From: Brachybacterium sp. Z12
GTDB taxonomy: Bacteria > Actinomycetota > Actinomycetes > Actinomycetales > Dermabacteraceae
Length of the DNA: 64,000 bases
Direction of reading: 5' to 3'
Assembly (NCBI RefSeq): GCF_014400405.1
Contig: NZ_CP060496.1
Span: forward strand, 124,001-188,000
The position numbers were made by a program, and so were the translations under genes. Shown piece after piece: positions 9,739 to 21,718 of the stretch (positions within the stretch are counted from its first letter, which is position 1; every line of letters starts with the position of its first letter). Below the pieces are notes generated by a model, which worked only from the letters and a program-made list of their open reading frames with translations, searched no databases and had not been told where the DNA came from.

Positions 9739-10560
9739 ATGGTCCTGGCCGCCCTGCTCCTCCTCGCGCCGCTCAGCGCGTGCGAGCCCCTCACCGACAC
9801 TGCGGAGCAGCCCGATGCCGTCCCGGCGGCCGACGGGACGGCGCTCGCGCTGCTCGAGGAGCTCGACGAGAAGGGCCGCGCCCCGAAGACGGGCTATGAC
9901 CGCGACTCCTTCGGCTGGCGCGATGACATGGACCGCAACGGCTGCGACACCCGCAACGACATCCTGCGCCGCGACCTGGAGGAGATCACGCTCAAGCCCG
10001 GCACCGACGGATGCGTGGTGCTCACCGGCACCCTCCTCTCGCCCTTCAGCGGCGAGAGCGTCGCCTTCGACCGCACTGCCTCCACGGTCGACATCGACCA
10101 CGTGGTGGCACTGTCGGACGCCTGGCAGACGGGCGCAGCCACCTGGGACGACAGCACCAAGCGCGAGTTCGCGAACGACCCGCTGAACCTCCTGGCGGTC
10201 GAGGCGAGCCTGAACCGCCAGAAGGGCGACGGTGACGCCGCCACCTGGCTGCCGCCGAAGCGGGAGAGCCGCTGCGAGTACGTGGCCCGGCAGATCGCGG
10301 TCAAGCACCGCTACGAGCTGTGGGTGAAGCCCGCCGAGGCCGACGCCATGCGGCGCGTGCTCGCCGACTGCGCGGACCAGTCGGCGCCGGACGCCGACGA
10401 ACCCTCGGCGGAGGAGCCGGCCTCCGGGGCCGGCGGAAAGACAGCCCCGTTCGAGAACTGCGACGCCGCCCGCGCCGCAGGCGCCGCCCCGGTCCGCGCG
10501 GACGATCCCGGCTACGGCAAGCACTTGGACCGCGACGGCGACGGGGTGGGCTGCGCGTAG
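9739..10560 (+). CDS. Secreted lipoprotein HNH nuclease (DUF1524) with Excalibur domain
   Basis: Exported nuclease-like protein. The N-terminus is hydrophobic with lipobox LSAC, so it is probably lipid-anchored outside. The DUF1524/HNH region reads TVDIDHVVALSDAWQTGA, followed by FANDPLNLLAVEASLNRQKGD; the DH pair and Asn residues fit the HNH metal site. The C-terminus has an Excalibur calcium-binding motif (LDRDGDGVGC). The ATG at 9739 leaves no basic residues before the signal core. A CTG at about 9659 behind AAGGA would add an Arg-rich leader, so the true start is uncertain. Two-domain nucleases of this kind are common in Actinobacteria. Confidence 0.82.
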   Translation: MVLAALLLLAPLSACEPLTDTAEQPDAVPAADGTALALLEELDEKGRAPKTGYDRDSFGWRDDMDRNGCDTRNDILRRDLEEITLKPGTDGCVVLTGTLLSPFSGESVAFDRTASTVDIDHVVALSDAWQTGAATWDDSTKREFANDPLNLLAVEASLNRQKGDGDAATWLPPKRESRCEYVARQIAVKHRYELWVKPAEADAMRRVLADCADQSAPDADEPSAEEPASGAGGKTAPFENCDAARAAGAAPVRADDPGYGKHLDRDGDGVGCA

Positions 10561-10570
10561 GGCGTGCGCC

Positions 10571-11235
10571 TCAGCGTCTGCGCGCCACCAGCACCGCGTC
10601 CGCCAGCTCGGAGGGCTGCCCGTCATGGCCGACGGACGGGCGGCTGCGCTCGTCGGCGACCTCGATCGTCCACTGATCCGAGGGCAGGTCCAGCTGGGCG
10701 GCGTCGTCCCGGGCGGTGATCATGTTCGGGCCGCGGTGGGAGGAACCGGGCGGCCCGGCGGCGTGGGAGATCACCACGAGACGCCCACCGCTGCGCACGG
10801 CCGACGCCGCCGTGCGCAGGATCGCGGTGCGGTCCAGCGCCACGTTCGACTGGAAGAACGAGGCGGTCACCAGATCCACCGACTCCGGCTCCGGCTGCCA
10901 GGTGCTGAGGTCCGTCGCCGTGAAAGTTGCGGTGTCGGAGCCACGTGCGGAGGCTTCCGCGCGGGCGCGGCCGACGGCGGTTTCGGAGATGTCCAGGCCG
11001 TGGGCCTGCCATCCCTGCTCGGCCAGCCACAGCACATCCCCGCCCTCGCCGCAGCCGAGGTCGATCGCGGTGCCGGGGTCAGCTCGCCCACCACGGCGGC
11101 CAAGCTGGCGTTGACCTTCCCGGACCAGATCCGTTCGGTCTCCGAGTAACGCTTCTCCCAGTACTCAGTGGGGGAGAGGTGGGCGTGGGGGTCCTCGGCG
11201 GCGTGGCCTGCGCCGTGATGGTGGTGAGCTGTCAT
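10571..11235 (-). CDS. Class I SAM-dependent methyltransferase, frameshifted
   Basis: Small-molecule or metalloid-type methyltransferase of the TehB-like class I fold. The N-terminus is His-rich (MTAHHHHGAGHAAED), then SPTEYWEKRYSE. After a one-base break in the run at 11075-11078 (a missing C on the coding strand) the SAM-binding motif continues as AIDLGCGEGGDVLWLAEQGW, followed by GLDISETAVGRARAEA and the motif II/III strands. Repaired length is about 221 residues, normal. Convergent with the HNH gene. The His cluster may bind a metal; substrate not readable. Confidence 0.78.
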
Positions 11236-11427
11236 GGGGCGAGCCTGGCAGATGTGGTGACGGCGGGGAAGGGCTCGTGCGCACCGCGCCGCAGAGCTGC
11301 ACTGCATTCTTGCGCGGGGCGCCGGACGGGTAGATTGTCGCCTCATCCAGGAGCGCCGCTCCCGGTCATGACCGCTACTTCCCCGCCGACGCCGGCGCGG
11401 CCGGGGCGAGACGAGGGGATGCCTGAG

Positions 11428-12781
11428 ATGACGAGTCCGCGCCTGAGCCGCGCCCAGAAGGTCGACGCCGCCACCCCCGCCTCCCGCAACCGGGTGGTGG
11501 ACTTCCTGCGCGCCGCCGCGATCACCGTGGTGGTGCTCGGACACTGGACGATCATCGCCGTGGACGCCGACGGCGGGATCATGCCGCACGGCGTGCTCGA
11601 CCAGGCCCGCTTGACCCATCCGCTCACCTGGATCTTCCAGGTGATGCCGATCTTCTTCCTGGTGGGCGGCTACTCCAACGCCCTGTCCTGGCGATCCGCC
11701 CGGCGCAAGGACGTGGGCTACGCCGAATGGCTGCGCACGAGGCTGCGCCGCCGCCGGGATACCGCTGATCCCGCTGCTGCTGGCCTGGCTGGTGATCGGT
11801 ATGGTCGCCGTGGCAGCCGGTGCCCCGCATGCGACCGTCCAGCTCGCCTCCCAGATGGCGCTGATCCCTACCTGGTTCCTCGCCGCGTACCTGATGGTGA
11901 TCATCGTGGCCCCGCCCTGCCTGATCCTGTGGGAGCGGTTCGGCTGGTTCTCGATCCTCGGCGTGCTCGCGCTCGCCGCCGCCGTGGACACCCTCAGTCT
12001 CCTCGCCGACCAGCCGCTGCTCGGCTACCCGAACTACCTGCTGGTGTGGGCCGCGTTCCACCAGGTCGGCTACGCCTGGCTCGACGGCAGGCTCTCCGGC
12101 GCCGGCAGGCGTCTGCTGCTCGCCGCGATCGGCCTGGTGGGCCTGCTGCTGCTGGTGAGCGTGGGCCCCTATCCGGTCTCGATGATCACGTCCGCAGCCG
12201 ACGACATCTCCAACTCGAGCCCCACCCGCATCACCATGGCGTTCCTGGGCATGCTGCAAGCCGGGCTGGTGCTCTCCCTCGAGAAGCCGCTGACCGCCCT
12301 GCTGAAGAAGCCCGGGCTGTGGTTCGTCACGGTGCTGGTGAACCAGCGGATCATGACCTGGTTCCTGTGGCACCTCACCGTCATGGTGGGGGTGGCGCAC
12401 GTGCTGCTCGCCCTCGATGCCCGCGCGCTGCTGCCCGAACCGCTGAGCGGTGCGTGGTGGGCGAGCAGGCCGCTGTGGGTACTCGCGCTACTGGCGCTCA
12501 CCGGGGTGGTGGTGCTGGTGATGGGCCGGTTCGAAACCCCGCGGGCCGACGACAGGCCGGCGCCCCCTCTGTGGAAGCCCTTCGCGGCAGGCGTGACCGT
12601 GATCGCCGGGCTGGCCGTGATGGCGAACGTGGGCGTGGTCAGCGAGGGCGGCGTGACCTGGTGGTGGCCGCTGCTGCCGGTGGTGGGGATGGTGGTGTTT
12701 GGGGTGGTGGCGACGGTGCGAGATGAGGGTTCCCGGAAGACGGTGCGAATGTTGGCACGAAAATCTGCCGGGGACGACTAG
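11428..12781 (+). CDS. Acyltransferase 3 family membrane protein, frameshifted
   Basis: Integral membrane O-acyltransferase (acyl_transf_3/OafA-type), likely acylating a cell-envelope glycan. The first segment contains the family signature VVDFLRAAAITVVVLGHW, with the catalytic-type His, and FQVMPIFFLVGGY. About nine further hydrophobic spans follow, to the basic C-terminus. The frame changes at about 11756-11758 (one extra G or two missing), after which it continues as IPLLLAWLVIG. The ATG at 11428 has GAGGGG nine bases upstream; ATGs at 11368 and 11419 are alternatives. It is the last high-GC gene before the AT-rich defence block. Confidence 0.75.
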
Positions 12782-12940: not shown

Positions 12941-13811
12941 TTACTTAGCGGGCTTTGTGTCTCTGCCCAGCGGCTGCTCTTCGTTTCGCTGATTCTGGGC
13001 TGCACCGGCGCTAAGTGGGATGTAGTCGGCACGATGCAAGTTGCCTCCACGTTCGCCGGCTTCTGCAGTCACGCTTCCAACCAGCTCGGGCACATCGATC
13101 GCTTCAGGAGAGGGTCGGTGCCTCCCCTCGGCGAATGCCAGTCTCGCTGCGGCGAGGTCCGCAAGGCGTACTGCCTGGATCACGATGACACGTCGCAGTC
13201 CCGCGGACACTTCGCCCCGCTCGTGAGCAACCGCGGCGACCCGGGCGAGTGTCTCTGCGCGCCGCGCGATGCGCACGTCTGGATGCTCTCTGTCCTCGCG
13301 CATGCCCTCCGGGATAAGCGTGAAGCGATGCGCGGCCGGCAGGTCAACTAGGGGATACTGGTGGGATCTTCTCATTGAGAATTGCCTGATACTTGGAGTT
13401 TCGAATTGCATTTACGTACACCGAATATTCGACGGCGTCGACCTGCGCATTCCGTTCTTTCGTTGGAGCTTCTCGCAGATGCTCTAGGGGATATAGCTCC
13501 ATGTCTGCAACTTCGAGCGGATCGAGGATCCTGTAGGCGATCGTGTCGGACCGCTGGCCGCGAAGGTGCCTGCCGACCCTGGTTGCGAAATCCTCGGTGG
13601 TCTGTCCGACGTAGATCGGCTCGCCGTCGTAGTCGTAGAAGGCGTACACACCGATGCACCTTCCGAGTCGTTCCCCGCTAAGCGGATCAATGGAATCGAG
13701 GGCCTCGGTAAGCAGCTCTCGAAATCCCCGCACGAATCGCGTCGGCATGGACTTTTTCGTCGGAGGCCTGCGGTCAGGGTCATTGTAGCTAGCGACTCCC
13801 CGGCTTGCCAT
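12941..13811 (-). CDS. GIY-YIG endonuclease-type protein, probably split by a frameshift
   Basis: Nuclease candidate of the defence operon. The first 155 residues carry a GIY-YIG domain: IGVYAFYDYDGEPIYVGQT, a catalytic-type Arg in TRVGRHLRG, and MELYPLEH downstream. This frame stops at 13344. An overlapping frame from 13375 continues with AAHRFTLIPEGMREDREHPD, VRIARRAETLARVAAV and VSAGLRRVIVIQAVRLADLA, which reads as the C-terminal half of the same protein. One missing C opposite the G run at 13351-13354 would join them as PPVSPLVDLP. Start ATG shares one base with the methyltransferase stop (TGATG). The joined reading is inferred; two overlapping genes remain possible. Probably the restriction nuclease of the module. 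Confidence 0.65.
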
Positions 13812-15028
13812 CAGAGAGCCTCGACGTTAAGTTCAAGCTGTCGCTGATGCCCGTCAGCCAGGGTGCCGTTGATGAGTGGAAGCAGATAGCTCTCGCTCAG
13901 CCAGGAGACGACAGGGACGGCAACAGCGTCGCCGAAACCAAACAGCGCCTGATTGGGTCGTGCCGAGCTCAAGTTATACTCGCCAGCACCCATGAGACGC
14001 GCGTACTCCTTGGGGGTCATCCAGCGGACTTGCATTCGCCCGTTCCCAAGCCGCACGACAGCTTGCTTCGAGGAGCCACCACGAGCCGTGCGCAGGCATC
14101 CCGAGATGTCGTCGGGCCGAACCTCCCATACTGCAACCCCTTTTCGTGTGCGGCGGTAGGCAGTTCTGTACTTGACCCCGCGTGAGTGTCGCATCGAGAT
14201 AACGCGCTCACGCTGGAAGGGCGAGAGGGAATCGGAGAAGGTTCGAGCTCGGTCCGCATCCCACCAACGCTCATCATCCAGTCGCATTTCCTCCACAAGG
14301 TCGCTCAGGCCTTCAGTGAGCGGAAGCGGCGGCGCGGGTAGGGCCGCACGGTGTGTGCGAAGGCTCTTGTCGCCGAAAACCCACTGTAGCCAGTCCGGCC
14401 TGAGCTCAGAATTCGGGTCCGCGACGTCGGTCGGAGGATTGGTGGCGGCGACGAGGAACAGTCGTGGCCGCGACTGGGGCACGAATCGCCTGGCGTCGAT
14501 TGCGAGGACATCAACAGAGTAACCAAGTTCGTTGAAAGCATGAATTGCCGCAGCGAGATCGTCGCCGCCATGCGACGAAGCCAATCCCGTCACATTCTCG
14601 AGGACAGCGACCTCAGGACGGTCGTCCCCTAGCTCCTTGAGGAGACGGATGAAGTGCCAGAAGGTGCCCGACTGTGCGCCAGCGAAGCCTGCTCGTCCAC
14701 CCGCAAGGGAGAGGTCAGTGCAGGGGGAAGAGGCCCAGGCGAGTGAAGCGTCGCGCGGCAGTTGAGCAACGCCTACCTGACCGATATCTCCTAGGGCAAA
14801 GGTGTGATCGTCTTGCCCGCCGAACTGGGCCTCGTACATTGCCTTCTTGTTGGCCTCGTAGTCGTTTGCCCAAGCCACGCGGAACCCAGCGGCCTCCAGA
14901 CCCATACGGGCAAGGCCGATGCCTGCAAAGAACTCGAGGGCCTTCGGTCGGGCGCTGTGCAGAGGCGTGATTACTCCCATCTGCCCGAGCATAGTCGAGC
15001 AACCGACATCTGGCAGGGGTAGAGCCAT
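13811..15028 (-). CDS. DNA (cytosine-5-)-methyltransferase
   Basis: C5-cytosine DNA methyltransferase of about 405 residues, complete by motif: I KALEFFAGIGLARMGLEAAG, IV SSPCTDLSLAGG (Pro-Cys nucleophile), VI VAVLENVTGL (Glu-Asn-Val), VIII PQSRPRLFLV, a target-recognition region around 200-330, and IX/X RWMTPKEYARLMG with FGFGDAVAVPV. The start is uncertain: ATGs at 15028, 14992 and 14980 all precede motif I, and a GTG at 15061 is possible. It follows the ATPase-TIR gene by about 80 bp and is coupled to the nuclease gene, so it is the modification arm of the operon. Base composition is clearly poorer in GC than the flanks. Confidence 0.9.
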   Translation of the reverse strand: MALPLPDVGCSTMLGQMGVITPLHSARPKALEFFAGIGLARMGLEAAGFRVAWANDYEANKKAMYEAQFGGQDDHTFALGDIGQVGVAQLPRDASLAWASSPCTDLSLAGGRAGFAGAQSGTFWHFIRLLKELGDDRPEVAVLENVTGLASSHGGDDLAAAIHAFNELGYSVDVLAIDARRFVPQSRPRLFLVAATNPPTDVADPNSELRPDWLQWVFGDKSLRTHRAALPAPPLPLTEGLSDLVEEMRLDDERWWDADRARTFSDSLSPFQRERVISMRHSRGVKYRTAYRRTRKGVAVWEVRPDDISGCLRTARGGSSKQAVVRLGNGRMQVRWMTPKEYARLMGAGEYNLSSARPNQALFGFGDAVAVPVVSWLSESYLLPLINGTLADGHQRQLELNVEAL

Positions 15029-15108
15029 CGCTGCCGAGTGAGTCTTGCGACTCCCGATCACTACTCGCGTGAGAGCCGTTACAGAGCGTCCACTACCCGC
15101 TGGCGCTA

Positions 15109-17223
15109 CTACATCGAGTTGGAAGGCGCGTAATAATGGGATAGATACTCGGGCATTCTCGGTTCTATAATAGTATTCCAGTGCTCCACTATGTCTTCGT
15201 CGAAATAGTCTTCGAGGGACTCCGAATTGCGCGACAGTTCAACCGCCAGCGGTACGTCGCGGCGGACAAAATGGCGAATCGCGTCTTTGCCGCCAATGTC
15301 CCTGCCGCGATTGAGGTGGTCGATCATGGGGTTCAGAACGCCCTCAATCAGATAGTTGTGCGTTTCGGGAGTAAGGGAGATTTTGCCGTCACCGCCAAGC
15401 AAAATCGCTTCACCTCGTCGGTTAGTTAACCATCCGGGAATGGCATCAAATTCTACGTTGAGCTTCAGGTACTCGCTTACTGCGCGGGTGGCCCACCCCG
15501 CGCCGCCTTCAAAAAGGCAGTACTGACTCTTCATGAAGTTCCTACTCGTTAGGTAGAAAACAAGGGTGTTGTCGTCAGTTATATTCCTTCTTACGACCTC
15601 ACTCAAGGCTCGCGCGTCGGTGGTGACAACGGTTGTGCCGGGTCGAGAGGTGTAAAAAATCTCTTCTTCATTAGCGCCGCGCGAGCGCAATAGCTCGTCT
15701 ATCAATGTGGCAAAGGCGTGGTCTGCGCTAGCGTGAGAGATAAAAACTTTGTAGTTTTGCTTTGGCGTGACGTCACCTTGGATTTTATTCGAGATTATTG
15801 AGTGTAGTTCGTCGCGTACGGATTGTGAGATTTCTTCATACTGATCAAAGTCGAGACGCAACTGCTGCGTGAAATGCTTCTTACCCGCGGTGTCTCGTCG
15901 ACCCCTCTCGTCTTCAGTATTCTTTGTGATTGTTGCTGCCAAGTGTGTGCGGCCCTGCATTAATCTTCGCACCAATGGTCGCACCAGTGCGCGAAGGAGG
16001 AGTATCCGTCTATCTGTTTGGTCGAAGTCTTGTCGGTTGGCAGTCGCGATGTCGGGTAGAAGATCGTCATCTAGCACGTCGAACGAGATCTCTCCTTCGA
16101 CATAATTGACATATGTGCCCGTCAGGCCCAATTGTGAGAGGAGATTATCGCTTGCGAGCTTGCCTCGCACATATAGGCGAATCTGCGCGGGGTTATAGAA
16201 CTTGTTCTTAGTGAATCGTTCATCGTTGGCTTTTGCGGAATCCGGATGGATTGTTGCGTGCATTCCTAGCCACCCGGTCAGCGCGAAAGGGCGACCCTTG
16301 TAAGTTTGAGCCTCCAGGTTCAGATCGTCCCCTAGTTCGCTCCATCCGTCTATTTCCTCAGTTAGGGTCCCGAAAGGTTCGCGCTCTTGAGGGAAGGAAA
16401 AAGTGCCGCCGGGTAGGCCCTTTGCGGGAATCTTTACGACCGGGGCGGCTTCGGCTAGTTCAATAGGTCGGTAACTGGCGTTGCGGAAGCTTTGGAGGAT
16501 TTCGCTAAAATTGTTGAAGGCGATCGATTTTTCGACTGGCTTGTAAGCAGGTTCGGCTGCATGTCCAGTTGTGTGCACCCACAGGAAGAGTCCCGCCTCT
16601 TTGGCGGCAGGAAGTAAGAACTGATTCGCGAGCCTCGTGCTAAGCGCCTTTATGGCTTGAGGTCCATACCCTGTTAGATCTACGCCGAGGATCGTGATTC
16701 GTGTGCCCGTACTGGTGTCGTCCCACAAATAATTGTTTGGAGTGGACGGGGTTGCGGACACACGGGCGAGGCTCGGATGGTCATTGTCACCTATGGTTCC
16801 ATCGCGTGCGTCCAGCTCCCACTTCGATTCTCCCTCAGAGTGCTTGGTCGATATGAAGAAGTGGGGGGAAAGGAATAGGGCCGCGAGTTTCCCAATGCCT
16901 TTGCGGCCCATGGGGTGGTTGACGCCACTGTTGTCAGAGTTTGCCTGGCGCTTATCGCGGCCAACTGTCACATATGAGTCGATGTCCGAACGTGACATTC
17001 CCACGCCGTCATCTAGAATCTCGATCGTTGCGTCAGTCTTGTTGGTCGCATCGATATAAATTCGTACGGCGTCTGCGCCGGCATCGAGGCCATTCGCAAC
17101 GAGTTCGGAGAGGGCATTCCATGGATTAGAGTACAGTCCTCGGCCGAGAAGCTTTAGCGCGAGCCAACTAAAGGTGAACTCTGCTCCCTCGTTGTCGTCT
17201 ACCACTGCGGCCTCTTCTTCCAT
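15109..17223 (-). CDS. GHKL (Hsp90/MutL/MORC-like) ATPase fused to a C-terminal TIR domain
   Basis: Large defence-type protein, 704 residues from the ATG at 17223 (GAGG just upstream; a start at 17259 would add 12 residues). The N-terminal GHKL ATPase shows the N-box ALSELVANGLDAGADAV, G1 ILDDGVGMS, TVGRDKR, and G2 GRKGIGKLAALF. A middle region follows. From about residue 490 comes a TIR domain: YKVFISHASADHAFATLIDE, EEIFYTSRPGT, LVFYLTSRNFMKSQYCLFEG, where the Glu of CLFEG (about 572) fits the NADase catalytic Glu. It leads an operon with a C5 methyltransferase and a GIY-YIG nuclease. Codons are AT-richer than the neighbours, so it was probably acquired. Inferred role: sensing foreign or unmodified DNA and triggering NAD+ loss. 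Confidence 0.85.
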   Translation of the reverse strand: MEEEAAVVDDNEGAEFTFSWLALKLLGRGLYSNPWNALSELVANGLDAGADAVRIYIDATNKTDATIEILDDGVGMSRSDIDSYVTVGRDKRQANSDNSGVNHPMGRKGIGKLAALFLSPHFFISTKHSEGESKWELDARDGTIGDNDHPSLARVSATPSTPNNYLWDDTSTGTRITILGVDLTGYGPQAIKALSTRLANQFLLPAAKEAGLFLWVHTTGHAAEPAYKPVEKSIAFNNFSEILQSFRNASYRPIELAEAAPVVKIPAKGLPGGTFSFPQEREPFGTLTEEIDGWSELGDDLNLEAQTYKGRPFALTGWLGMHATIHPDSAKANDERFTKNKFYNPAQIRLYVRGKLASDNLLSQLGLTGTYVNYVEGEISFDVLDDDLLPDIATANRQDFDQTDRRILLLRALVRPLVRRLMQGRTHLAATITKNTEDERGRRDTAGKKHFTQQLRLDFDQYEEISQSVRDELHSIISNKIQGDVTPKQNYKVFISHASADHAFATLIDELLRSRGANEEEIFYTSRPGTTVVTTDARALSEVVRRNITDDNTLVFYLTSRNFMKSQYCLFEGGAGWATRAVSEYLKLNVEFDAIPGWLTNRRGEAILLGGDGKISLTPETHNYLIEGVLNPMIDHLNRGRDIGGKDAIRHFVRRDVPLAVELSRNSESLEDYFDEDIVEHWNTIIEPRMPEYLSHYYAPSNSM

Positions 17224-17224
17224 C

Positions 17225-17446
17225 TCAGTCCTCGGGTCTGGGCGTGAAGCTGCCCGCAATTATAGCCGCTGGCTGCGCTCTCGGGCCTTGGTAGGCCGAC
17301 TCAGCTTTCCATCGTTGCGGCAACTCCTCGACTGCCGCGGAGCCGTCAAGACGGGTTCGCCGGTGGTGAGGGGTCTCCAGCGTGCGAATTCTGAGCGCCA
17401 TCTGCGTGCAGGAGGCGTACATGTTTGATGCTGTATCACGACTCAT
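17225..17446 (-). CDS. Possible small protein at the head of the defence operon
   Basis: Open frame of 73 residues on the operon strand whose TGA lies one base before the ATPase-TIR ATG. It contains MALRIRTLETPHHRRTRLDG and ends AIIAGSFTPRPED. I recognise no family. The close spacing suggests a leader gene translated into the ATPase, but no strong ribosome-binding site is seen and it may be non-coding. Confidence 0.3.
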   Translation of the reverse strand: MSRDTASNMYASCTQMALRIRTLETPHHRRTRLDGSAAVEELPQRWKAESAYQGPRAQPAAIIAGSFTPRPED

Positions 17447-17645: not shown

Positions 17646-18738
17646 TGTTGCGGGTCATGACGTTGTAGTCACGGAACGGGGATGAAGGAACGGGTCCCTG
17701 ACCGGCACGATGGGTGGTGTCTAGACATCCGTCGCCCGGGAGGAACCCGTTCCATGACCCACCGTAATTCGCCTCTGACCCCTGCCGGAAGACTCCGCCT
17801 GGTCCAACGTGTCGAAGATGATGGCAGACCCATCGCCCACGTCGCCGCTGAAGCAGGAGTAGTTCGATCCACGCTCACGAAGTGGGTCCACCGCTACCGC
17901 GAAGACGGCGTCGAGGCCCTGGAAGACCGCACCAGCGCCCCCGCAAGACGGCCCTCGCGGATACCGATCGAGGTCATCGAACTCATCGATGCCTGGCGAC
18001 GAGACCGCAAATGGTCTGCCCGCCGCATCGCCCTCGAGCTCGCCGGACGCGGGCACCATTTCTGTGTCCGCACCATCGGCAGATGGCTGCAGCGCCTCGG
18101 GATCTCCCGCCGCCGTGACCTCGACCCGACCGGGGAGAACAACCGCGAAACTGGGAAGATCATCGCTCGCTTCCCCGGTCACATGCTCCACCTGGACGTG
18201 AAGAAGGTCGGGAGGATCCCCGACGGCGGTGGCTGGAGGCTTCACGGCCGCGGCCATGCGAAGGCGCGCAAGCAGCGCGTGGACTACACCTACCTGCACA
18301 CCGTGATCGACGGCTACTCACGCCTCGCCTACACCGAGGACTTGGAGAACGAGACCGCGGCAACCACCATCGGCTTCTTCTCCCGGGCGAGAGCGTTCTT
18401 CGCTGCTCACGGCATCAATCGCCTCGTCCGAGTGGTCACTGACAACGGCTCCAACTACCGCGCGAAGACCTTCGTTCGCACCGTGAACGCGCATGCCTCG
18501 CGGCATCAGCGGACCCGGCCCTACATGCCCCGGCACAACGGGAAAGTCGAGCGCTACCAGCGGATCCTTGCCGAGGAATGCCTCTACGCCCACGCCTTTT
18601 ACTCCGAGAACGAGCGCCGCGAAGCGATCAGCGTCTGGGTCCACCATTACAGCTATCATCGGCCGCACACCGCCTGCGCCGATCAGCCCCCGGCCACCCG
18701 AGTCCACGAACGTGTCGACAACGTCATGACCTCATACA
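17646..18738 (+). mobile_element. IS481-family insertion sequence, complete
   Basis: Terminal inverted repeats of 21 bp start with TGT: left TGTTGCGGGTCATGACGTTGT (17646), and the right end read inward from 18738 gives TGTATGAGGTCATGACGTTGT. The inner 14 bases are identical. Both ends abut TCTAG (17640-17644 and 18739-18743), matching the CTAG target duplication known for IS481. The 1.09-kb size is normal. It sits between the defence operon and the metal ATPase gene. The repeat pair GGAACGGGT/ACCCGTTCC at about 17688 and 17745, just before the start codon, may form a leader hairpin. Confidence 0.85.
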
Positions 18739-18743
18739 TCTAG
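17754..18743 (+). CDS. IS481-family transposase
   Basis: DDE transposase, 329 residues, intact. An N-terminal helix-turn-helix (GRLRLVQRVEDDGRPIAHVA, then RSTLTKWVHRYRE) is followed by an HTH-like RRIALELAGRGH. The catalytic core shows HLDVKKVGRIPDGGG (first Asp), VVTDNGSNYRAK (second Asp) and HNGKVERYQRIL (Glu). The ATG at 17754 has GGAGG nine bases upstream. Its TAG stop is not encoded by the element: the last IS base is 18738 and the stop comes from the duplicated CTAG target. Confidence 0.92.
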   Translation: MTHRNSPLTPAGRLRLVQRVEDDGRPIAHVAAEAGVVRSTLTKWVHRYREDGVEALEDRTSAPARRPSRIPIEVIELIDAWRRDRKWSARRIALELAGRGHHFCVRTIGRWLQRLGISRRRDLDPTGENNRETGKIIARFPGHMLHLDVKKVGRIPDGGGWRLHGRGHAKARKQRVDYTYLHTVIDGYSRLAYTEDLENETAATTIGFFSRARAFFAAHGINRLVRVVTDNGSNYRAKTFVRTVNAHASRHQRTRPYMPRHNGKVERYQRILAEECLYAHAFYSENERREAISVWVHHYSYHRPHTACADQPPATRVHERVDNVMTSYI

Positions 18744-18971: not shown

Positions 18972-20909
18972 ATGCCGACACAGACCATCGCCTCACCCAC
19001 CCGAGAAGCGCCGTCCTCGACGTCGCGGGCAGTGGAGTTCCTCCGCCGCCGCAAGTTCATGATCTTCGTGATCATCGGACTCACGGCCGGGCTGGTGCTC
19101 TGGGCGACCGGCCAGACCACCGCTCTCGCCGTCACCGCGTACCTGGTGCTCGGCATCGTGATCGTCGTGACGGCGATCGACATGGTGCGGGATCTGATGC
19201 GCGGGCACTGGGGGCTCGACATCCTCGCGGTCATCGCCATGATCGCGACCCTCGCGGTGCAGGAGTATGTCGCGGGGCTCATCATCGCGTTGATGCTCAC
19301 CGGTGGCGAAGCATTGGAGGACCTGGCCGCGCGCCGCGCCAGCCGTGAGCTCGACCAGCTGATGAGCCGAGCTCCAGCGTTCGCGCAGCGAATCCACCCC
19401 AGCACAGGCGAGGTGGAAAGCATCACGATCGACGAAGTGCAGGTCGGTGACGAGCTGCTGGTGCGATCCTCGGAGATCCTCCCCGTTGACGGCGAGTTGT
19501 TGTCGGAGCACGCGACGATCGATGAATCCTCGGTGACCGGTGAGCCGATCCCGGTGAGCTATGGCGCCGGCGACCACGTCCTCTCGGGCACGGTGAACGG
19601 CACCGCGAGCTTCACGATGCGTGCGCAGAAGATGGCGGCCGATTCGAACTATGCGTCGATCGTGCGACTGGTGGAACGAGCCGTGGAATCCCACGCACCG
19701 ATGGTGCGGCTCGCCGACCGGTACGCCGTGCCCTTCACGGTGGTGGCGCTGCTCATCGCTGGTTTCGCCTGGTTCCTCAGCGGGGACCCGGTGCGCTTCG
19801 CCGAGGTGCTCGTGGTGGCGACGCCCTGCCCGCTGCTCATCGCCGCCCCGGTCGCCTTCATGGGGGCATGAGCTCCGCCGCACGGCTGAACGTCATCATC
19901 AAAGACGGTGGCGTCCTGGAGATGCTCGCCCGGGTGCGTTCCGCCGCGTTCGATAAAACAGGCACCCTGACGCAGGGCAAGGCTGACGTGGTGGATATCC
20001 ACCCGGCCTCCCGCAGCAGCAGCGAGACGCTTCAGCTGGCAGCTGCCGCGGAGCAGTACTCCGTCCATGTCTTCGCCGATCCGATCGTGGCAGCCGCGAG
20101 AGCGCAGCAGCTCGAGCTGCCGGACGTGACGAATGCTGACGAGGTCGCGACGAACGGGGTGCTCGCCCACCTGGCCGGCGGCGCCGTGGTGCGGGTCGGG
20201 AAGCCCGCCTTCATCGAGGAGGCGACCGGGTCGATCGACCGGCCCGAGCTCCGCGCCGGGGAGACGGCTGTGTATGTGTCGGTCGGTGACGAACTGGCCG
20301 GCACCATCATCTTGTCGGACCCGATCCGTCCGCACGCGGCAGGCACCATCTCCCGCCTTCGGGGAGCCGGCGTGGCGGAGATCGTGATGGTGACCGGCGA
20401 CGTCGCGCCGACCGCCGAGTCCGTCGCGCAGACGGTGGGCATCCAGACGGTCCACGCCGAGACCACACCCCAGACCAAGGTCGAGATCGTGCAGGCCATC
20501 CGGCCGCGGCCGGTGCTCATGGTCGGTGACGGCATCAATGACGCCCCGGTGCTGGCAGCTGCGGACATAGGCATCGCCATGGCAGGCCGGGGGCCACCGT
20601 CGCGAGCGAATCGGCCGCAGCGGTCATCACCTCGAACGACATCGCACGCGTGGCAGACGTCGCCTATGTGTCGCGGCGCACCGTGCACATCGCGCTGCAG
20701 TCGATCTGGATGGGCATCATCATCTCGGTGGTCCTGATGCTCGTCGCCGCCTTCGGCTACCTGCCCGCAGTGGCGGGTGCGCTCCTGCAGGAGGTGGTCG
20801 ATCTCGTCGCCATCGTGTCGGCTCTGCGAGCGCTCCGAGCACACAGGGGGCGGAGCGAGACCGTGCACCTCGCCACGAGCCGGCCCAGGCTGATGCCGCT
20901 GCTGCGTGA
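18972..20909 (+). CDS. Heavy-metal P1B-type ATPase, frameshifted
   Basis: Membrane pump exporting a transition metal. There is no N-terminal metal-binding domain; it starts directly with helices (FMIFVIIGLTAGLVLW). Core motifs are SSVTGEPIPV (actuator TGE), VVATPCPLLIAAPVAFMG (membrane metal site of TPC type), FDKTGTLTQGKA (phosphorylated Asp) and MVGDGINDAPVL. Breaks sit at GGGGG 19862-19866 (restores FMGGMSSAARLN) and 20589-20593 (restores MAGRGATVASESAAAVI). A third missing G at 20846-20850 would give a natural stop at 20909; without it the frame runs into the next gene. SVHVFADPIV stands where SEHPLA is usual. Metal unknown, perhaps Zn/Cd/Co. Confidence 0.8.
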
Positions 20910-21079
20910 GCCCGAGAGGATGAACGGGACGCCGAACCTGGTGTGGGTCACCGGCTTTCCCCGCGAGCGGGTGATGCCCCTCAGTCGTCCGCACCGGAGC
21001 GGCATTCGGCGGCGGCGGGTTCGTCCGGGGCGTGTTCGCCCAGCTGACTCCCGGCACTACCGGAAACTAGCGACCTCGA

Positions 21080-21718
21080 GTGGAAACCACGCCATGGCGC
21101 AGGTCGATCCCCGCCTGGTGGAGCGCCGAGGTGATCGCCGACCAGCTCCTCGCCGCGCTGACGCCCGTCGGTGCTGCGGCAGACGACCCCGCCTATGCCT
21201 CCCGCTTCGCCGCCCTGCTCGAGGCGAGTCGCGAGTCGGGGAAGGTCCCGCTCGCCGCCTACGACATCGACTACATGATCGATCTGCACCACCAGGGTGC
21301 CTACAACGCGATCGGCGATGAGTGGGTCTCCGGCTCGATCCTCCACCTGACCAGCCCCAACGCCGATCCGGATCTGGTCGAGCGCTCGAAGCGGCTGGGC
21401 GTCATCGTCTACGACGCGGTCGACTCCACGGGCTGGGGCCTGCTCGGGAAGTACGCCGGCGGCTCCGCCGAGACGATCAGCCGCAACGGGCTGGCCGTGG
21501 AGTACGACATCGCCACCCTGCTGTTCGAGATGCGCGGCATGTCCGACCACTCCAACGAGGGCTCGGTCCTCGGGGCCCGCAGCAGCGGATACCTGATCAG
21601 GCAGACCGTGATCACCCTCGAAACGGCGACCCGGGCGCTGGCCGACGGATCGATCGATGCGGCGGACACCTCCCTCTGGGACACCCTCCCCACCCAGGAG
21701 TGGAGCCGCGACGAGTGA
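21080..21718 (+). pseudogene. M14 zinc carboxypeptidase, C-terminal remnant
   Basis: Only the second half of an M14-type carboxypeptidase fold is present. DYMIDLHHQGAYNAIGDEW carries the third zinc ligand His, and YDIATLLFEMRGMSDHSNEG carries the catalytic Glu. The HxxE zinc motif of the N-terminal half is missing, and an in-frame TAG lies just upstream (about 21068). The GTG at 21080 lacks a convincing ribosome-binding site. I read it as a 5'-truncated gene, probably cut in the rearrangement that placed the metal ATPase beside it. Confidence 0.6.

Follow-up and report, generated by a model that had tools for sequence, protein, structure and literature searches.

A GHKL ATPase-TIR protein beside a C5 DNA methyltransferase in Brachybacterium sp. 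Z12: a candidate methylation-gated defence on a restriction-enzyme chassis

Proteins in which a GHKL ATPase and its S5 domain are joined to a TIR domain were named paraMORC4 by Iyer, Abhiman and Aravind (2008), who noted the motif Hx[ST]xD in the TIR domain, placed the family in restriction-modification contexts and suggested a role as nuclease or in ligand binding (PMC2292703). Such a protein (GHKL-TIR) is encoded in a 64,000-nucleotide stretch of the Brachybacterium sp. Z12 genome (NZ_CP060496.1, positions 124,001 to 188,000; hereafter the window), beside a C5-cytosine DNA methyltransferase (DCM) and a GIY-YIG nuclease gene. It resembles paraMORC4 in its GHKL-S5 ATPase, its C-terminal TIR domain, the sequence HASAD in the first TIR loop and its methylase neighbourhood, and may be assigned to that family by these described features. 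The first-pass annotation of the locus knew of no named GHKL-TIR system in C5 restriction-modification operons; the 2008 name supplies one for restriction-modification contexts (PMC2292703). However, paraMORC4 was a prediction only, and the window adds a Glu like that of SpbK, pairing with a DCM, a chassis shared with BbrUII and a partner swap. No experimental study of GHKL-TIR proteins in restriction-modification contexts was found in the open-access literature searched, preprints excluded.

Several other described systems resemble the locus in part. Enzymes of the BbrUII/HgiDII type (NF050001) are built on the same chassis of ATPase and S5 and also adjoin a C5 methyltransferase, but lack the TIR domain that GHKL-TIR carries in place of their nuclease-like C-terminal third. 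SpbK is similar in TIR sequence and in the positions of E192, G194 and W197, whereas its N-terminal domain is another one, its target is a phage portal protein, and the available portion of the report names no methyltransferase (PMC12847820). In the phage-tested VcSduA (paraMORC3, Shedu-type), a GHKL ATPase is likewise followed by an effector domain, but this effector is a DUF4263 nuclease and the system is described as sparing the host cell (PMC12137116). The paraMORC-like HEF_HK with Response_reg_2 also places a GHKL chassis with another C-terminal output beside a C5 methyltransferase, although here the output is histidine-kinase-like and accompanied by a receiver protein (PMC8011034). A similar arrangement occurs in a Clostridia metagenome-assembled genome (MAG; L028, 6729-11073), where a DCM is followed by a GHKL protein with a second C-terminal HATPase and then by a receiver-domain protein.

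The preferred reading, to which we give a probability of about 0.48, is that GHKL-TIR acts as a methylation-gated, NAD+-depleting (NADase) abortive defence. We infer the NADase activity, the methylation gate, the abortive outcome and the target site alike, and the support is read from sequence: the domain make-up, the shared chassis, the TIR domain in place of the nuclease-like third, the pairing with a DCM, the partner swap and the exchange of cargo at a shared genomic slot. The locus would comprise two modules, of which module A is the GHKL-S5-TIR protein of paraMORC4 kind, usually partnered by a C5 methyltransferase, and module B is the DCM with the GIY-YIG nuclease. The DCM would mark host DNA at its site, and the GHKL-S5 ATPase would load onto, or be licensed by, unmethylated sites of incoming DNA. 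Dimer closure driven by ATP would then bring the TIR domains together, and these would hydrolyse NAD+, so that the infected cell is halted before it can release phage. In the window, a single DCM, that of cassette B, would guard the host both from cleavage by the nuclease and from killing by the NADase. The finding that VcSduA, a GHKL-nuclease protein, protects against phage is counted in favour of this reading (PMC12137116).

Somewhat short of an even chance, the system may be described as restriction by suicide, in which a cytosine methyltransferase would mark self DNA and an ATPase of BbrUII/HgiDII type, with a TIR domain in exchange for its cutting third, would answer unmethylated DNA by destroying NAD+. 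The two genes would form a nuclease-free unit able to exchange its methyltransferase for that of an ordinary type II system, as in the window. If true, methylation-based discrimination of self from non-self would be wired to abortive NAD+ depletion instead of DNA cleavage, and the boundary between restriction-modification and abortive infection would be blurred. One ATPase chassis would take nuclease, TIR or kinase outputs. The 2008 prediction would gain a function, and the role of methyltransferase-linked GHKL ATPases would become testable with two genes. New here are the DCM/GHKL-TIR pair with its NADase-type Glu, the swapped C-terminus on a BbrUII chassis and the partner swap.

The three same-strand genes reported by the first-pass annotation between 12941 and 17446 are present on the minus strand, with the following features:

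15109..17223, minus strand: GHKL-S5-TIR gene (paraMORC4-like), 704 aa from the ATG at 17223, start and stop codons checked
15922..17193, minus strand: GHKL ATPase and S5/transducer part, residues 10-433 of the GHKL-S5-TIR protein
15292..15759, minus strand: TIR domain, about residues 488-643, with the E571 codon at 15508-15510
13811..14980, minus strand: C5-cytosine DNA methyltransferase (DCM), PF00145, 389 aa from the ATG at 14980
13344..13811, minus strand: N-terminal piece of the GIY-YIG nuclease with the candidate catalytic residues, PF01541, ATGA overlap with the DCM
12941..13411, minus strand: C-terminal piece of the GIY-YIG nuclease, continuing in another frame and matching the GIY-YIG proteins of L073 and L043

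Residues of GHKL-TIR are numbered from the translation of window 15112-17220, the first being the one after the ATG at 17223. The domain calls of the locus are very probably correct. The N part of GHKL-TIR is HATPase_c_3 (Pfam PF13589, E value 2.2e-19), and the N box (E39-N43-D46), G1 box (D70-x-G72-x-G74) and G2 box (G105-G108-G110), already described as intact from the sequence alone, are invariant in 9 of 9 aligned GHKL-TIR proteins. The TIR domain with a candidate NADase Glu also stands, weak as it is in Pfam: TIR_2 matches the full-length window protein at an E value of 0.0028, under the Pfam cut-off, and at 0.01 is listed for the full-length proteins of L022 and L023 and unlisted for those of L011, L012, L026 and L020. 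Searched alone, the C-terminal parts matched TIR_2 in 8 of 8 cases when E values of up to 0.1 were accepted, the best being 5.4e-6. Among solved TIR domains, SpbK comes nearest in sequence (5.3e-11), and the PADLOC spbK model matches residues 474-609 of the 716-aa frame at 1.9e-19. In the first TIR loop, HASAD (residues 496-500 of the window protein) fits Hx[ST]xD; the strict motif is found in 5 of the 9 aligned proteins, and its H and D in all 9.

The candidate Glu, E571, is kept in 9 of 9 aligned GHKL-TIR proteins, and C-x-x-E in 8 of 9. With residue numbers counted by hand, E192, G194 and W197 of SpbK align with E571, G573 and W576 of the window protein. Glu at this position is the catalytic residue of TIR NADases. 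SpbK itself is an NADase, with E192 located at the modelled NAD+ site and with defective G194R and W197A mutants (PMC12847820). It is against this background that a role proposed for paraMORCs in the 2008 survey (PMC2292703) has to be weighed, namely that of a DNA-looping accessory of a restriction-modification complex, in which the TIR would be a nuclease or ligand-binding part and not an NADase. The MORC/MutL/Hsp90-type ATPase fold would suit looping, but the match of the Glu and its surroundings to an NADase argues the other way, and such a role is very unlikely here.

The ATPase part leads to a second comparison. NF050001, the BbrUII/HgiDII model, matches GHKL-TIR with an E value of 7.4e-47 and 160.2 bits, which does not reach the curated cut-off of 550 bits, and gives 727-801 bits for the BbrUII members of L013, L017 and L021, each of which adjoins a DCM. 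All 9 GHKL-TIR proteins align to BbrUII-type proteins only as far as position 368-434 of 682. The C-terminal third of the latter, with a nuclease-like D..ExK-like motif seen by eye, is absent from GHKL-TIR, which has the TIR domain instead. GHKL-TIR would thus represent the ATPase/S5 chassis of BbrUII/HgiDII-type restriction enzymes, their status as such taken from the NCBIfam family name, with the C-terminal third exchanged for an SpbK-like TIR. The target of HgiDII and BbrUII is GTCGAC.

Full-length GHKL-TIR is encoded in 8 distinct actinobacterial genomes, namely those of the window, G086 (L011), Demequina (G284; L012, the same stretch as L025), an Actinomycetaceae MAG (L022), Schumannella (L023), Cellulomonas (L024) and two Salinibacterium (L026 and L027); L028, where the N part alone matches, and the fragment L029 were left out. 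The window DCM is complete (PF00145 at 3e-40; PADLOC PDLC03243 at 576 bits), as the first-pass annotation had it, and its link to GHKL-TIR extends to the relatives: this DCM subfamily is encoded in 7 of the 8 genomes and is adjacent in 6. In the window the two genes run in tandem. They converge in L011, L022 and L023, with gaps of 16 bp in the first two and an overlap of 12 bp in the third, and diverge in L026 and L027, where the longest frames are 42 and 20 bp apart, respectively. A whole-genome search for the DCM was positive in 5 of 7 genomes, including Cellulomonas, where the gene lies outside the L024 stretch; it found no member of the subfamily in Demequina or L028. Against a background of 9 in 297 genomes of the order, the excess is strong among the six named genomes, 5 of which are positive (binomial probability 8.5e-8, falling to 2.6e-6 when the two Salinibacterium are treated as a single case). 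In the order sample it is borderline without the window genome (0.053) and 0.0024 with it. The gene for a distant Listeria GHKL-TIR protein (24%) lies 5 bp after a DCM.

GHKL-TIR was found in 10 of the 297 genomes of the order sample at an E value of 1e-10 (3 full-length, the window's own included); at 1e-30, none of the 395 other genomes in a phylum-wide sample matched. With the Listeria protein as query, 0 of 299 genomes matched in a Firmicutes sample that contained no known positive. Searches of viral contigs gave no relatives and those of phages 2 partial matches, while 23 plasmid records had partial matches, all below 60% identity, none of them counted at 80% coverage (the Listeria row prints 80%).

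In a rival reading, a phage protein sets off GHKL-TIR in the way that YonE does for SpbK, and the nearby methyltransferase only accompanies it in defence islands or has another role. SpbK, whose TIR is the nearest in sequence among those solved, has the SPbeta portal protein YonE as its target (PMC12847820), the Demequina GHKL-TIR sits in a DISARM operon without this DCM, and the L011 and L023 loci resemble defence islands. We nevertheless regard such a trigger as unlikely, given that 7 of the 8 genomes encode one DCM subfamily, with adjacency in 6 and in three orientations, that the trees of the two genes branch alike for the dedicated pairs, and that the chassis is common to restriction enzymes. 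The DCM and GHKL-TIR probably form a two-gene defence unit.

The trees also suggest how the window came by its present combination. Five dedicated GHKL-TIR partners form a clade in the DCM tree (support 100/99), and the window DCM groups instead with the DCMs of L043, L073, a Curtobacterium plasmid and Cellulomonas. A topology that places it inside the dedicated clade is rejected (p-AU 0.0078), in a test that presumes a clade named in advance, whereas the dedicated clade was named after the first tree had been seen. In the GHKL-TIR tree, the window protein lies inside a clade with those of L011, L022 and L023 (support 96/97, or 85/86 with the distant Listeria row), and the two trees branch similarly for the dedicated pairs. 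Because the window DCM falls outside the dedicated clade while its GHKL-TIR falls inside the GHKL-TIR clade, and because the two genes also differ in GC content (52.9% for GHKL-TIR and 61.9% for the DCM), a partner swap is supported, by which the window GHKL-TIR would stand beside another DCM of the same subfamily and not the DCM of its own clade.

A pair without a recognised nuclease is supported for two lineages (L022; L026 and L027), or 3 of the 5 dedicated pairs. No Pfam nuclease family was found in the neighbouring frames scanned there (5, 4 and 2 frames, respectively), several of which have no family at all, and the families seen were housekeeping ones (thioredoxin-like, PucR-type, DUF368, LuxR and EcsC). 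A 363-aa frame without a family adjoins the DCM of L022 and leaves room for doubt on the absence of a nuclease. In Salinibacterium L026, the DCM and GHKL-TIR are the only long frames between DUF368 and LuxR, with homology to relatives ending at about 6293 and resuming at about 10460; in L027 the interval additionally has a gene of the EcsC family and an incomplete second copy of DUF368. In the relative G1009 the slot carries the gene of a HamB-like/PDC-M23B defence helicase together with genes for a 344-aa protein and a DUF2971 protein, and in G1019 it is occupied by small genes, one HNH among them. Changing cargo in this DUF368-LuxR slot is thus seen across Salinibacterium and relatives (L107, 2615-8227; L026, 6293-10460).

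In Demequina (L012, 8404-19486, equivalent to L025), GHKL-TIR lies 118 bp after DrmC and on the same strand as DrmMI, DrmA, DrmB and DrmC, and is possibly an add-on to DISARM at the tail of that operon. A methylase or restriction neighbourhood is accordingly found as a DCM at 6 of the 8 loci and as the DISARM operon at one more, with neither in L024. The slot exchange, the position at the DISARM tail and the DCM neighbour in Listeria point to a defence role.

Two dedicated loci weigh against the preferred mechanism. An MrcB_N-domain protein is encoded directly upstream of the Schumannella GHKL-TIR (L023, 6143-7528, minus strand), where Mfd and a protein kinase are also found; MrcB_N is a restriction-associated family. 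In G086 (L011, 12818-15302), the GHKL-TIR/DCM pair is followed by another C5 methyltransferase and by a protein with an MTaX1 domain. These neighbours slightly lower our confidence in the mechanism and in restriction by suicide and slightly raise that in a back-up guard, and a stronger proposal, in which none of the five dedicated pairs would have a nuclease as neighbour, was dropped on account of them. As such a guard, GHKL-TIR would sense the failure of resident restriction, through an inhibited nuclease or DNA ends, and then kill. The window GHKL-TIR does lie upstream of a DCM and GIY-YIG cassette, and other restriction or defence genes occur near GHKL-TIR in L011, L023 and Demequina. However, none of the 7 other GHKL-TIR loci has a GIY-YIG match in its surroundings and the scanned neighbours of L022, L026 and L027 have no Pfam nuclease family, making a guard rather improbable. 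The first-pass annotation was right to see a defence-type locus, but the sequence of cutting first and killing on failure is not required, since five relatives pair GHKL-TIR with their own DCM without a GIY-YIG match, though L011 and L023 have restriction-associated neighbours.

The trio is real as a neighbourhood and not as a conserved system. The three-gene operon as a conserved unit was rejected: within the stretches examined, blastp matched the GIY-YIG pieces beside GHKL-TIR in 0 of the 7 other full-length loci, and the DCM with GIY-YIG occurs separately. The latter is a separate type II restriction-modification cassette, probably Eco29kI-like. Searches of the stretch or record concerned found it with no GHKL-TIR in G289 (L043; DCM 79-81% identical to that of the window), in the IMG/VR contig L073 (DCM 79%, GIY-YIG 79%, ATGA overlap identical to that of the window) and in Curtobacterium, Mycobacterium and Arthrobacter plasmids; taken together, the DCMs of L043 and L073 are 78-81% identical to that of the window. 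Among viral contigs, 27 DCM relatives were found, with a GIY-YIG match in 6 and a DUF4928 match in 5, and at L093 a GHKL match stands beside a DCM relative with no TIR listed. A DUF4928 protein following a related DCM in an Enterobacter plasmid (L067, 4995-7119), L075 and L076 is another candidate restriction partner.

Eco29kI (CCGCGG), whose methyltransferase is of the C5 type, resembles the cassette in pairing that enzyme with a GIY-YIG nuclease, and the window nuclease may have equivalents of its Y, Y, R, H, E and N residues in the same order. In the window, whose N piece matches PF01541 at 9.5e-6, the motifs read by eye, unaligned to R.Eco29kI, are VYAF (55), IYVGQT (66), RVGRH (78), VEYSVY (127) and AILNEK (143); the residues used for comparison were Y49, Y76, R104, H108, E142 and N154 (PMC1952068). 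The window nuclease differs in that its frame is broken in this assembly and it has no sequence match to a solved Eco29kI structure. Avoidance of CCGCGG in the window is unclear and uninformative (111 sites observed against 124 expected), and a target-recognition comparison of the two DCM clades was indecisive.

The coupling of DCM and nuclease by TGATG, with stop and start sharing ATGA, is as first described, but the nuclease is not a single open gene. Its residues 1-153 correspond to residues 1-151 of the intact L073 copy at 79% identity, and the downstream frame to L073 residues 154-254 at 82%, with 68% over 93 residues to the L043 protein. The gene is in a single frame in L073 and L043 and, by annotation, in the Curtobacterium and Arthrobacter plasmids, and is annotated as two parts in the Mycobacterium plasmid. 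At L044 (7169-7459, G287), the GIY-YIG partner of a related DCM has just 96 aa open.

GHKL-TIR and the broken cassette might also be mere neighbours, a decaying or chance assembly that does not cooperate in this strain. The frame break, the unequal GC content of the modules, a window DCM of another clade and a trio unseen in 7 other GHKL-TIR loci are consistent with this, although GHKL-TIR and the DCM are open and conserved, both parts of the nuclease keep 79-82% identity to an unbroken copy, and a gene next door whose frame is also broken suggests errors in the assembly. A chance assembly is distinctly improbable on this evidence. The neighbouring gene (10927-12781, plus strand) is acyltransferase-like and apparently in two frames, with 378 aa open (G000). 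Its 11 matches in the genus, counted at 300 or more of 329 residues covered and at least 62% identity, and without a second, broken copy in G695, have 435-721 aa open, 2 of them with one internal stop. The window assembly is a single contig with a completeness of 85.7%, against 99-100% in 18 listed genomes of the same genus; in another genus sample, 4 of 20 genomes are at 74-88%, all of them in 310-750 contigs. Low completeness in one contig together with the broken acyltransferase raises the suspicion of error for the nuclease, and the frame breaks in the window may be assembly errors. A P-type ATPase-like gene (18972-21321, plus strand) also lies in overlapping pieces in different frames, with PF00122 and PF00702 in separate open reading frames.

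The mechanical open reading frame of the DCM begins at GTG 15061, and ATG 14980 was chosen from alignment with relatives. With 128 bp between the GHKL-TIR stop (15109) and this start, the tight spacing claimed for the genes holds for the DCM and GIY-YIG and fails for GHKL-TIR and the DCM. All are AT-richer than the window (69.7% GC), as had been noted, though unevenly, from the 52.9% of GHKL-TIR to 56.6 and 65.0% in the GIY-YIG pieces. A promoter and terminator scan gave signals near or below those of shuffles, a scan for tandem repeats gave none, and a flank search found no clean empty site in the genus, the flanking genes being about 41 kb apart in G697. The IS481 copy reported for the region is confirmed as an IS481-family transposase (17682-18743, plus strand; 3.8e-86) beside the GHKL-TIR gene. 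Elsewhere in the window, at 9739-10560 on the plus strand, an Excalibur domain is fused to a GmrSD_C (DUF1524-type) domain.

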